NCBI GenBank assembly: GCA_031262595.1
Contig: JAISHI010000019.1
Span: forward strand, 1 to 47,399
Origin: Christensenellaceae bacterium
GTDB taxonomy: Bacteria > Bacillota > Clostridia > Christensenellales > UBA1242
Length of the DNA stretch: 47,399 bases
Direction: 5' to 3'
Translations under genes and position numbers: made by a program
Shown: one piece after another, positions 12,126 through 17,701 of the stretch
Numbering within the stretch: the stretch's first letter is position 1
Layout: every line of letters starts with the position of its first letter
Notes under the pieces: model-generated
The model's input: the letters and a program-made list of their open reading frames with translations, nothing else
Database searches by the model: none
What the model was told of the DNA's origin: nothing

Positions 12126-12344
12126 CTACCCCTCAAAAAACTCGGCGTATTCTATGCCGAATTTTTCGTGCAATTTAAAAAGCGTTATATAACTCGGAAG
12201 ACTTTTCCCGCTCGCGAGATTACTTATTTGACTTTGGCGGATTTCGAGAATTTCGGATAATTCCGCCTGAGTAAGGTTTTGTTCTCTTAATATCGAGTGC
12301 ATACGCCTCGCGAACAACAATTTATCTAGGTTTTTTGTTGACAT
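12126..12344 (-). CDS. XRE-family helix-turn-helix regulator
   Basis: This 72-residue protein is essentially one Cro/CI-type DNA-binding domain: FARRMHSILREQNLTQAELSEILEIRQSQISNLASGKSLPS, with the recognition helix at about QSQISNL. There is no effector domain. It is divergent from a second XRE gene at 12451, and a symmetric GTTGACAT/ATGTCAAC pair flanks its promoter, so autoregulation is plausible. Its start codon sits at the expected transcription start. Confidence 0.8.
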   Translation of the reverse strand: MSTKNLDKLLFARRMHSILREQNLTQAELSEILEIRQSQISNLASGKSLPSYITLFKLHEKFGIEYAEFFEG

Positions 12345-12380
12345 GAGATATATTTACTACACAATAATTGCAATGTCAAC
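12337..12380 (-). promoter_or_regulatory. Promoter of the XRE gene, flanked by an inverted repeat
   Basis: On the minus strand the -35 is TTGACA (12374-12379) and the -10 is TAAATA (12351-12356), with a 17-base spacer. GTTGACAT at 12337-12344, overlapping the start codon, and ATGTCAAC at 12373-12380, overlapping the -35, are perfect reverse complements. They could be the two halves of an operator. The -10 ends 6 bases before the ATG. Confidence 0.6.
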
Positions 12381-12450
12381 TCCCCTTGCAACATTTGTTG
12401 CGAGGGTTATAACTCGACAACGGTTATACTATAAGTTAGGAGTATATATC

Positions 12451-12696
12451 ATGAACGTAAGAGAGGCAGTCGCCGCAAGAACCGAACAATTACTTAGAGA
12501 GCGGGCAATGTCGCGGCATCAGCTCGCGAAAAATATGGCGGTTGGCGATGGGCTATTATATAACATAATAAGGGGCAAAAACCGAAGGAGCGTTGACTTC
12601 AATACGGTTTGCGCAATCGCCGACGGTTTCGACATGAACGTCATCGAATTTCTAAACGTTCCGCTATTTTACAACGACAACCTCGACCTAAATTAG
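12451..12696 (+). CDS. Second XRE-family helix-turn-helix regulator
   Basis: The 81-residue protein has one HTH domain: LLRERAMSRHQLAKNMAVGDGLLYNIIRGKNRRSVDFNTVCAIADGFDM. The ATG at 12451 has TTAGGAG about 8 bases upstream, and a TATACT box lies at 12425-12430, so the longer upstream frame is not used. It is divergent from the other XRE gene and may control it or the downstream recJ region. No toxin partner is recognisable next to it. Confidence 0.75.
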   Translation: MNVREAVAARTEQLLRERAMSRHQLAKNMAVGDGLLYNIIRGKNRRSVDFNTVCAIADGFDMNVIEFLNVPLFYNDNLDLN

Positions 12697-14881: not shown

Positions 14882-15175
14882 TTATTTTTCTGAGATTTCT
14901 TGGATTTCTTGTCGTATTGAGTTATTAGTACTATCACGTTCGGCAATTCCTTTCTCAAGCCACTCGATAGTCTCATCAATCGACATTATCTCGTTCTTGA
15001 GTTCTTCAAGTTTACTAGTATCGTTTGTGCGCAACGATTTATCTACACACTCCTGCTTCGCGTCTTTCAACTCTTGCAGCGTTTTCTGCTCGTTATACCC
15101 ACCACACCCGACAACATTCAGCAAAATTGCCCCAGCACCAACCGCGCCCAAAACATTTTTTGTAAATTTTTTCAT
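14882..15175 (-). CDS. Small coiled-coil lipoprotein
   Basis: This 97-residue protein starts with a lipoprotein signal: basic MKKFTK, hydrophobic NVLGAVGAGAILLNVV, and lipobox VVGC with the cysteine at residue 24. The mature part is charged and heptad-like (LQELKDAKQECVDK, LEELKNEIMSIDETIEWLEK), so it is probably a membrane-anchored coiled coil. Function unknown. The promoter contains a run of nine C/G (see 15182-15212), which may make expression switchable. It is AT-richer than its neighbours. Confidence 0.75.
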   Translation of the reverse strand: MKKFTKNVLGAVGAGAILLNVVGCGGYNEQKTLQELKDAKQECVDKSLRTNDTSKLEELKNEIMSIDETIEWLEKGIAERDSTNNSIRQEIQEISEK

Positions 15176-15181
15176 GAAAAT

Positions 15182-15212
15182 ATGATACCCCCCCCCTATT
15201 TAAATTTGTCAA
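15182..15212 (-). promoter_or_regulatory. Promoter with a 9-base poly-C tract in the spacer
   Basis: On the minus strand the -35 is a perfect TTGACA (15207-15212) and the -10 is TATCAT (15182-15187), ending 6 bases before the ATG of the lipoprotein. The spacer is 19 bases and contains nine consecutive C on the plus strand (15188-15196). Slippage in this tract would change the spacer length and therefore promoter strength. Confidence 0.7.
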
Positions 15213-15310
15213 GCACTTTTTAAAAATTCGTTTATCGAAATTAAACACGTATTTTCACCACTTCTTATAAAAATCTTGCGTAAACACGCGTGGCTTGTTA
15301 TCATAACTTA

Positions 15311-16207
15311 ATGAAAATAGCGGAAAATTGGCGGGATTTTGAGTTAATCGCGAGCGGAAACGAGCAAAAACTCGAACGTTGGGGCAAGTTCTTTTTGTTG
15401 CGCCCCGATCCGCAAGCGATTTGGAACGCGCCATTTAAACTCGCTGATGATAAGCGCATAAACGCGGTTTACGAGCGGTCGGCGACCGGCGGCGGGGCTT
15501 GGAATATCCTTAAAAAAATCCCCGACGAATGGACAATCGAATATAAAAACCTAAAATTTATAATCAGCCCTATGGGTTTTAAACATACCGGGCTTTTCCC
15601 AGAACAAGCCGTTAATTGGGATTTCGCGATGAACGCAATTTCCGCCGAGAAACGAAATAATCCCGCGCGCGAAATTCAAGTTTTGAATTTATTCGGCTAT
15701 ACGGGCGGCGCGACTGTTGCGGCGGCGGCGGCGGGCGCGAAACTAACTCACGTCGACGCATCGCGCGGAATGGTTGAGGTTTGTAAGCGAAATTGCAAGC
15801 TAAACGCGCTCCCCGAGAACGCGGTTCGGTTTATCGTCGATGATTGCGTTAAGTTTTGCGAGCGGGAACTTAGGCGCGGAAAACAATACGACGCGATTAT
15901 AATGGACCCGCCGAGTTTCGGGCGCGGGGCTAACGGCGAGGTTTGGAAACTCGAAGCCGACTTAAACCGCCTCGTTTCGATTTGTGTTAAATTTTTATCG
16001 CCAAAGCCGCTCTTTATCCTAATAAATAACTATACGAGCGGCGTTCAACCAACGGTTATAAAAAATGTTCTTCAAAAAAATCTAGCGGAACAAAAAATCG
16101 CCGCAAACATAGATTGTTTCGAAATCGGGTTGCCTTCCACGGATGGCATAGTCCTCCCAGCCGGAACGACCGCGGTCGCGACGTTCGCCGCTGCCGCCCC
16201 AAAATAG
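15311..16207 (+). CDS. Class I SAM-dependent methyltransferase, RlmI-like
   Basis: The 298-residue protein resembles the catalytic part of the RlmI/COG1092 family. The SAM-binding motif I is VLNLFGYTGGATVAAAAAGA, with the acidic motif II in LTHVDASRGMVEVCKRN, and the catalytic-loop motif is IIMDPPSFGRG. It lacks an N-terminal PUA domain, so it is a short family member; the substrate is probably RNA but is not shown. The ATG at 15311 is supported by TTGCGT (15276-15281) and TATCAT (15299-15304), which ends 6 bases before it. The HIT gene follows 60 bases downstream. Confidence 0.85.
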   Translation: MKIAENWRDFELIASGNEQKLERWGKFFLLRPDPQAIWNAPFKLADDKRINAVYERSATGGGAWNILKKIPDEWTIEYKNLKFIISPMGFKHTGLFPEQAVNWDFAMNAISAEKRNNPAREIQVLNLFGYTGGATVAAAAAGAKLTHVDASRGMVEVCKRNCKLNALPENAVRFIVDDCVKFCERELRRGKQYDAIIMDPPSFGRGANGEVWKLEADLNRLVSICVKFLSPKPLFILINNYTSGVQPTVIKNVLQKNLAEQKIAANIDCFEIGLPSTDGIVLPAGTTAVATFAAAAPK

Positions 16208-16267
16208 CCCATCCGCCCCGCCGCACTAACCACCAAAAAACTAAATTTAAGGAGAAATAAAAAAATT

Positions 16268-16567
16268 ATGTGTATATTTTGCGATTTAAAATATAACGCC
16301 ATTGCCGAAAACGAACTTTGTTATGCTATCCTCGATAAATTCCCGCAAACAAAAGGTCATACCCTAATTATCCCGAAACGCCATATCACGACCGTTTTCG
16401 AGATGGCGCCGGAAGAAAACCGCGACGCATTCGCGCTAATAAACGAAATGAAATCGCGCCAAGACGCAGAAAACAACCCGCGCGGTTATAATATCGCGGT
16501 AAATTGCGGCGAAGTTGCCGGTCAAGCCGTCATGCACGCGCACGTTCATTTAATACCGAGGTATTAA
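16268..16567 (+). CDS. HIT family nucleotide-binding protein
   Basis: HIT proteins hydrolyse nucleotide phosphoramidates or similar bonds at alpha-phosphates. The N-terminus CIFCDLKYNAIAEN, the middle FPQTKGHTLIIPKRHITTVFE and the histidine triad HAHVHLIPRY at the C-terminus are all present. At 99 residues it is a little short and ends directly after the triad. An AAGGAGAAAT Shine-Dalgarno site precedes it, which fits co-transcription with the methyltransferase gene. Confidence 0.92.
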   Translation: MCIFCDLKYNAIAENELCYAILDKFPQTKGHTLIIPKRHITTVFEMAPEENRDAFALINEMKSRQDAENNPRGYNIAVNCGEVAGQAVMHAHVHLIPRY

Positions 16568-16573
16568 CGCAAC

Positions 16574-16600
16574 AAAAACTCCGTTTATCGCGGAGTTTTT
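16574..16600. terminator. Bidirectional terminator between the HIT gene and the next gene
   Basis: AAAAACTCCG (16574-16583) pairs with CGGAGTTTTT (16591-16600) across a 7-base loop. T-runs on both strands allow it to end the HIT transcript and the converging transcript from 17303. Confidence 0.85.
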
Positions 16601-16610
16601 AGAATTTGGA

Positions 16611-17303
16611 TTAAGACGATAAACCTCGCTCGTCGGTGTTCTCGATTTCTTTTGGCGATTTTTCGGCATTGAATCTTGTTAATAGGTCCTTCTTTATATT
16701 TATTGTTCTACGTTGCCACCATGCCCTCAGTGATTCCCCTCGCGAAGGTATGTCCTTTGCCGACTCATAACCTTTGTCAAGAATCTCCCTAACTCCCAAT
16801 TCTTCAATTTGTTCTTTGGTAAGCTCCATAATCTCAAGTTTCACTACTGATGCTCGAGTCTCTGGGCGACTTTTTCTAGATAAAGCTTCCGGCGTGCTGT
16901 AGGCCTCTAACCAGCCGTTACATTGCCCTTCACGATAATATATCTTGAGGCCCAATGGACAATCCTCATTTCCGAATTTGTAGAGTTCTATATTTTTATG
17001 ATCTTTACCGCGACTACCTTCTTCAAAAAAACCCATTATATGTTGCGGTGATTGTTCTACCGAAGTCCCTTCGATTTGCATGCCCTGAAAAAATCCTACC
17101 ACCATATTAGACCAAATGCCTTCACCGTCACGAAAAAATTTATAAGTTTCTTCCGTTTCAATATAACCCTCATTTTTACATATCGGCCCGAGCGTTAAAT
17201 CACCACGCGGATCCCCAAGCGACGGCGTCTCGGTCTCAATCCATTCATGCGCCCTCTCTTCCCATGAAATTTTATAAATTTTCATACTTTCCATATTGTC
17301 CAT
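16611..17303 (-). CDS. Hypothetical protein behind a poly-C promoter
   Basis: I do not recognise this 230-residue protein. It is soluble and acidic, with a beta-rich first half (MKIYKISWEERAHEWIETE, ICKNEGYIETEETYKFF, MVVGFFQGMQIEG) and a helical second half (LTKEQIEELGVREILDKGY, SLRAWWQRRTINIKKDLL). No signal peptide, membrane segment or metal motif is visible. A strong AAAGGAGGAAG site precedes the ATG at 17303. Codon use (many aga, ata, tta) differs from the backbone, suggesting transfer. Expression may vary through the poly-C tract. Confidence 0.6.
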   Translation of the reverse strand: MDNMESMKIYKISWEERAHEWIETETPSLGDPRGDLTLGPICKNEGYIETEETYKFFRDGEGIWSNMVVGFFQGMQIEGTSVEQSPQHIMGFFEEGSRGKDHKNIELYKFGNEDCPLGLKIYYREGQCNGWLEAYSTPEALSRKSRPETRASVVKLEIMELTKEQIEELGVREILDKGYESAKDIPSRGESLRAWWQRRTINIKKDLLTRFNAEKSPKEIENTDERGLSS

Positions 17304-17329
17304 ATTTTCTTCCTCCTTTAAAATAGGGA

Positions 17330-17358
17330 AGTATGCCCCCCCCAGTCGGGTTTGTCAA
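17330..17358 (-). promoter_or_regulatory. Promoter with an 8-base poly-C tract in the spacer
   Basis: On the minus strand the -35 is TTGACA (17353-17358) and the -10 is CATACT (17330-17335), with a 17-base spacer. Eight consecutive C on the plus strand (17336-17343) fill the -10 side of the spacer. The bases around the -35 (GCTTGACAAA) match those of the lipoprotein promoter at 15207. These are the only two C-runs of eight or more in the window. Confidence 0.7.
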
Positions 17359-17443: not shown

Positions 17444-17701
17444 TTATATAGAAGCAGTTATCAAACTAGCTTTATACCCCACCCATTTTTTTATGATGTC
17501 GTCGAGAGTTGAGGGCAACGGAATTTCCGTATCATGTTTATACGCGAGCAAAAGATAGTATTCCAAAAGTTCCTCGGCGTTCGCGTAAGTCTTTTCGAGC
17601 GTTTCGCCGTCGCAATAAAGCGCAAGGTCGGGGATATAACCGTTATATTGCCCCGTTTCCTCGTTGAAAATAAATACGATTGGATACGTAAACTTAACCA
17701 T
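17444..17701 (-). CDS. HicB-like (UPF0150) protein without a HicA partner
   Basis: This 85-residue protein has the partial RNase H-like fold of HicB: YPIVFIFNEETGQYNGYIPDLALYCDGETLEKTYANAEELLEYYLLL. HicB proteins neutralise the HicA mRNA-interferase toxin. No hicA-like frame is found on either side, and the C-terminus (DDIIKKWVGYKASLITASI) lacks a clear DNA-binding domain. It may be a solitary HicB or belong to a toxin elsewhere. TAGACA (17731-17736) and TATATT (17708-17713) place its start 6 bases after the -10. Confidence 0.72.
   Translation of the reverse strand: MVKFTYPIVFIFNEETGQYNGYIPDLALYCDGETLEKTYANAEELLEYYLLLAYKHDTEIPLPSTLDDIIKKWVGYKASLITASI

Follow-up and report, generated by a model that had tools for sequence, protein, structure and literature searches.

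Poly-G tracts between the -35 and -10 hexamers: a candidate phase-variable promoter class in a Christensenellaceae genome and related lineages

To our knowledge, switching through homopolymers in promoter spacers has been described mainly in Gram-negative pathogens and spirochaetes. Many of the G/C tracts of Campylobacter and Helicobacter lie within reading frames. For Campylobacter, a cut-off of 7 or more Gs or Cs has been used for such tracts (PMC6321876). In Neisseria meningitidis, porA and fetA have a homopolymeric tract between -10 and -35; spacing-dependent initiation, altered by slippage of the tract, is established for porA and proposed for fetA (PMC2791445). In Treponema pallidum, the tp0126 tract is likewise placed between the two hexamers, and the same mechanism has been reported for this gene, 17 nt being optimal; the tprL tract measures G7-G11 in vivo, mostly G9 (PMC7864442).

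The promoters described here resemble those of porA and fetA in that a G/C homopolymer between -35 and -10 sets the spacing and surface proteins are targets (PMC2791445). They resemble those of T. pallidum tp0126, tprE/G/J and tprL in that genes for surface proteins have about 8-10 consecutive Gs in their promoters (PMC7864442), and the poly-G contingency loci of Campylobacter and Helicobacter in forming a genome-wide set of G/C tracts. Unlike porA and fetA, they occur in a Clostridia-related lineage with reduced genomes, which have as many as 41 such promoters each, many of these preceding members of one paralogous family. Treponema, by comparison, belongs to an unrelated phylum and has far fewer loci, with a spacer location for only some tracts. 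In contrast to Campylobacter and Helicobacter, with their many tracts in reading frames, the present genome has 11 of 12 tracts in the spacers of promoters, and it encodes MutS. Switching in this lineage would be of the porA type.

The window, the whole stretch of 47,399 nucleotides that was analysed, contains two such promoters, both on the minus strand. One precedes a gene for a predicted lipoprotein of 97 aa (MKKFTKNVLGAVGAGAILLNVVGC...; 14882..15175, ATG at 15175). Its -35 hexamer TTGACA (15207..15212), read directly from the sequence like that of the second promoter, lies inside GCTTGACAAA and is followed by a 19-nt spacer (15206-15188) made up of AATTTAAATA and nine Gs (15188..15196; C9 on the plus strand), which fill the -10-proximal half. 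The -10 hexamer TATCAT (15182..15187) ends six bases before the ATG, giving the layout GCTTGACAAATTTAAATA-G9-TATCAT-ATTTTC-ATG. This short distance suggests that the transcript is probably leaderless, with its start expected at or near the start codon, and the leaderless arrangement gives independent support to the choice of -10 and to the 19-nt spacing. A permease gene elsewhere in the genome (L181), with a promoter of the same type, also has six bases between -10 and ATG.

The second promoter belongs to a gene for a cytosolic-looking protein of 230 aa (16611..17303, minus strand, ATG at 17303). Here TTGACA (17353..17358, minus strand), again inside GCTTGACAAA, is followed by a 17-nt spacer (17352-17336) consisting of AACCCGACT and G8 (17336..17343; C8 on the plus strand), a -10 hexamer CATACT (17330..17335) and a ribosome-binding site AGGAGG (17312..17317), in the order GCTTGACAAACCCGACT-G8-CATACT-...-AGGAGG-...-ATG. 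A hairpin with a U-run (AAAACTCCG...CGGAGTTTTT; 16575..16600, assigned to neither strand) separates the HIT gene from the 230-aa gene; from its sequence it is probably a bidirectional terminator, by which the 230-aa gene would be transcribed on its own. The lipoprotein gene, too, forms a single-gene unit, and both genes face a convergent neighbour.

An initial annotation had described a lipoprotein promoter with 9 C in a 19-base spacer and a promoter of the gene at 16611 with 8 C in a 17-base spacer, both with a perfect TTGACA; the lengths proved exactly right, with both promoters reading along the minus strand, and both hexamers were confirmed. Its statement that the window has no other C8 run also holds, the next longest G/C run being a single C6. 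The description of both genes as AT-rich and non-core was partly right: their GC contents of 40.5% and 42.0% are close to the window mean of 43.3%, although below the 45-50% of neighbouring core genes, and a search of the family's 296 other genomes gave no convincing homolog of either gene. The lipoprotein found just two marginal matches there (E 5e-4 to 1e-3), and the 230-aa protein found no relative in these genomes and no Pfam or NCBIfam match. Searches of Pfam, NCBIfam and Rfam assigned no function to either gene or to the region.

Two other features of the window were seen in passing. An 85-aa protein encoded at 17444-17701 on the minus strand resembles, by eye only, a HicB-type antitoxin domain, with no obvious toxin partner adjoining. 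At 12330-12385, divergent TTGACA promoters overlap within an inverted repeat (GTTGACAT...ATGTCAAC) and separate two HTH-like genes (12126-12344, minus strand; 12343-12696, plus strand).

A pattern search of the whole 811-kb genome found 12 G/C runs of length at least 8 in total, and 11 of them sit between -35 and -10 hexamers; the twelfth is in apparent coding sequence. The -35 hexamers of the 11 promoters are TTGACA-like, one being TTGACT, and each is paired with a -10-like hexamer. The run-length distribution is bimodal. In 309 kb of the genome, G/C runs of length 4, 5, 6 and 7 number 784, 130, 16 and 1, and are followed by 12 runs of length 8-11, against 2.3 of length at least 8 expected from a first-order model. 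Tract lengths in the 11 promoters are G8 (three), G9 (four), G10 (two) and G11 (two). A search with a C-run in place of the G-run on the coding strand of the pattern gave no match.

Spacers of the 11 promoters measure 16 (one), 17 (five), 18 (three), 19 (one) and 20 (one), while those of the other TTGACA promoters in the same genome peak at 17-18. The poly-G set thus covers both the states expected to be strong and those expected to be weak, and the peak agrees with the earlier rating of the 19-base spacer as weak and the 17-base spacer as optimal.

To survey relatives, the pattern TTGACA-N3-12-G7 was searched, with the reversed pattern as control. In the family, 144 of 297 genomes and 30 of 42 genera have it, with the reversed control near zero. 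Three other families of the order (f15, f20 and f32) are rich in the pattern, and a fourth (f3) less strongly so. In twelve selected genomes, with each tract counted once, the number of distinct sites ranges from 2 to 41. Across the clade, the majority of 141 sites have spacers of 15-20, spread around the 17-18 optimum. In a phylum-wide sample, matches and reversed controls were both low and scattered, at about chance level. This distribution marks the promoters as a trait of the clade that many members have lost or lack.

Close relatives and strains were sought through UvrB. The best match to this genome, with 64% identity, was a metagenome-assembled genome that bears the label Christensenella sp. 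UBA1259, and poly-G promoters were absent from all the matched loci. Viral contigs gave 18 scattered matches and one match to a g13-type motif, with no strain series of a single promoter. A few viral contigs (L330, L333, L327, L321 and L329) carry promoters of the form TTGACA-N-G8..12-TAnnnT, and the related contigs L330 and L333 have tracts of G8 and G10. In the open-access literature we found no account of poly-G promoters as a class in Clostridia. The mechanism is of a known kind, but neither its presence in this lineage nor so large a set of switches appears to have been reported.

The 11 promoters precede genes for an amino-acid permease, for proteins that look secreted or lipoprotein-like, and for several proteins that have no relatives; of ten scanned, the permease alone gave a convincing Pfam domain. 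By a simple N-terminal hydrophobicity test for signal or transmembrane-like segments, 5 of the 11 are exported or surface-like, against a genome background of 16% (p 0.024), a moderate enrichment. The 230-aa protein and several other targets are not obviously surface-located. Among relatives the trend is stronger: 52 of 56 proteins from G070, G217, G057 and families f20 and f15 are exported or membrane-anchored, against the 16% background of the window genome, with N-terminal signal or transmembrane-like segments in 19/19, 14/17, 3/3, 12/13 and 4/4 of the genes examined in five groups. Exceptions are G027 (2/9) and G022 (1/3).

The genome with the most sites, G070, has 41 poly-G promoters; 18 of the 19 readable target genes examined there are paralogs with N-termini that look, by eye, SipW/TasA-like, and the remaining one encodes a large secreted protein. 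Similar paralogs, some with BspA-type LRR domains, occur in G012, G110, G123 and G217. Targets in f20 and f15 genomes include large lipoproteins with InlB-type or Ig-like domains, and those of G057 are lipoproteins and secreted proteins. Domains found in the targets of relatives are LRR_5, Big_2 and InlB-repeat.

Some relatives have a near-perfect hairpin that begins at the -10 hexamer itself (TAAAATGACCTTGC...GCAAGGTCATTTTA), just past the G-tract (L154, L156 and L158 in G012; L170 in G123; L258-L263 in G217), and its stem sequences differ between copies. The mean folding z past the tract is -5.1 in G012 and -6.9 in G217, and about 0 in G110 and G070. The hairpin is possibly a 5' stabilising stem, an attenuator or an operator.

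Across promoters, tract length spans G7-G23 with the -35 and -10 fixed, and homologous promoters often have unequal tracts between flanks that agree. Within the window genome, the homologous promoters of paralogs on L175 and L179 have G11 and G9; these genes, at L175:7069 and L179:9961, have the N-terminus MKKKN[VI]ILATA... in common. Promoters with pre-tract AAAATGC have G7, G8, G9 and G10, and those with GAATTGC or GAACTGC in G016 have G9, G9, G7 and G8. Tracts are G11 and G12 in G001 and G14-G23 in G057, and between the species G049 and G134 they differ as G9 and G8. For 86 distinct pre-tract sequences, total spacer length has a variance of 4.26, compared with 6.91 if tract and flank were independent, a reduction reached in 8 of 10,000 shuffles; the rank correlation alone is weak (-0.14, p 0.21). 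From the lowered variance, selection appears to act on the distance between -35 and -10, with the tract supplying length.

Tract length is equal in 52 of 73 close homologous pairs, nearly uniform in G070 (exactly G9 in 16 of 20), and G10 in four copies with differing upstream DNA in G518. Such near-uniformity and the many equal pairs indicate either that variability is modest or that one length is favoured. A mode at G9 is also seen in the T. pallidum tract that varies in vivo, so uniformity is not decisive (PMC7864442). In G057, contigs C1, C17 and C20 end inside, or within about 20 bases of, very long tracts (G14-G23), as though the assembly had broken down at these points. The ends are suggestive of length heterogeneity, but they were left out as evidence, since repeats, or difficulty in sequencing poly-G, would produce the same picture.

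Several explanations other than switching were weighed. That two homopolymers fell by chance into promoters of AT-rich, non-core DNA draws some credit from the first-order model, by which about 2 runs of at least 8 arise per 309 kb. Against this, 11 of the 12 runs in the genome lie in promoter spacers and about half of the family's genomes carry the pattern while reversed controls are near zero; on these counts coincidence was rejected, and its probability is negligible. A tract could instead be a passenger in a repeated promoter cassette that is carried with duplicated surface genes and expressed constitutively. Promoter copies in g13 and g34 genomes do agree over flanks that range from tens of bp to above 100 bp, and many contigs stop a short way past the promoter, which is typical of repeats. 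Yet most promoters of the window genome, of G027 and G022, and of family f20 precede unrelated genes and have little in common beyond TTGACA, tract and -10, and descent from one copy would not restore tract and spacing in so many genera. We consider the cassette very improbable.

More serious, but still unlikely, is that the G-tract is a fixed binding element, recognised beside the -10 by a regulator or through some peculiarity of the clade's RNA polymerase or DNA shape, and that these promoters make up one regulon without switching. The tract mostly adjoins the -10, G070 combines its prevalent G9 mostly with a spacer of 16, and genome-specific pre-tract motifs (ATGC, GGCT, GGGC) recur, all as a fixed element would have it. 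A fixed element fits poorly with tracts of G7 to G23 among otherwise similar promoters, and with a -35/-10 distance that is held where tract length is not. Pre-tract sequence, moreover, is unrelated between genera and variable among the 11 promoters of the window genome, and the narrow mode at 9 is found as well in the length-variable G tract of T. pallidum (PMC7864442).

Transcriptional phase variation through slipped-strand mispairing in the promoter spacer is, with good confidence, the best explanation. Behind it stand the anatomy of the promoters, their recurrence across genome and clade, their association with surface genes, and the tract differences between homologous promoters. The housekeeping RNA polymerase would transcribe both window genes from promoters whose -35/-10 spacing is partly a G-run. 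Slippage during replication would add or remove a G, each step would change the spacer by one base, and transcription would rise or fall with it. Cells of a single population would then differ, randomly and reversibly, in making the lipoprotein and the 230-aa protein. At present the lipoprotein promoter, with its spacer of 19, would be weak and that of the 230-aa gene, at 17, strong. The two would be 2 of 11 switches in this genome, within a promoter class used mainly for surface proteins in several families of the order. We infer that the tracts are hypermutable today, that they vary in length within living populations and that this variation affects transcription. Loss of mismatch repair was considered as a booster of slippage and rejected, MutS_I being present in this genome; it is also present in 278 of 297 genomes of the order. 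Any slippage would therefore take place despite active mismatch repair genes, as it likewise does in meningococci.

The initial annotation had proposed phase-variable expression from the two window promoters. Support comes from the recurrence of poly-G promoters throughout the genome and the clade, for the most part before genes that are lineage-specific or encode surface proteins, and from tract lengths that differ between homologous promoters, from which we infer the switching itself. That reading was right and understated its case, as the available evidence is far stronger than its reader could see.

A wider proposal, on which we are evenly divided, is that several families of this uncultured, Clostridia-related order use individually switchable poly-G spacer promoters as a general system of antigenic variation. 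Each paralogous surface protein would have one stochastic switch (up to about 40 per 1.2-Mb genome), the cell surface would be combinatorial, and reduced genomes would leave much of their regulation to chance. The nearest named relatives of the order are metagenome-assembled genomes, many from animal guts. If the interpretation is true, switch promoters would be a prominent class in several families of an order that is mostly uncultured, would diversify the cell surface at random, and would provide a context for many proteins without relatives.
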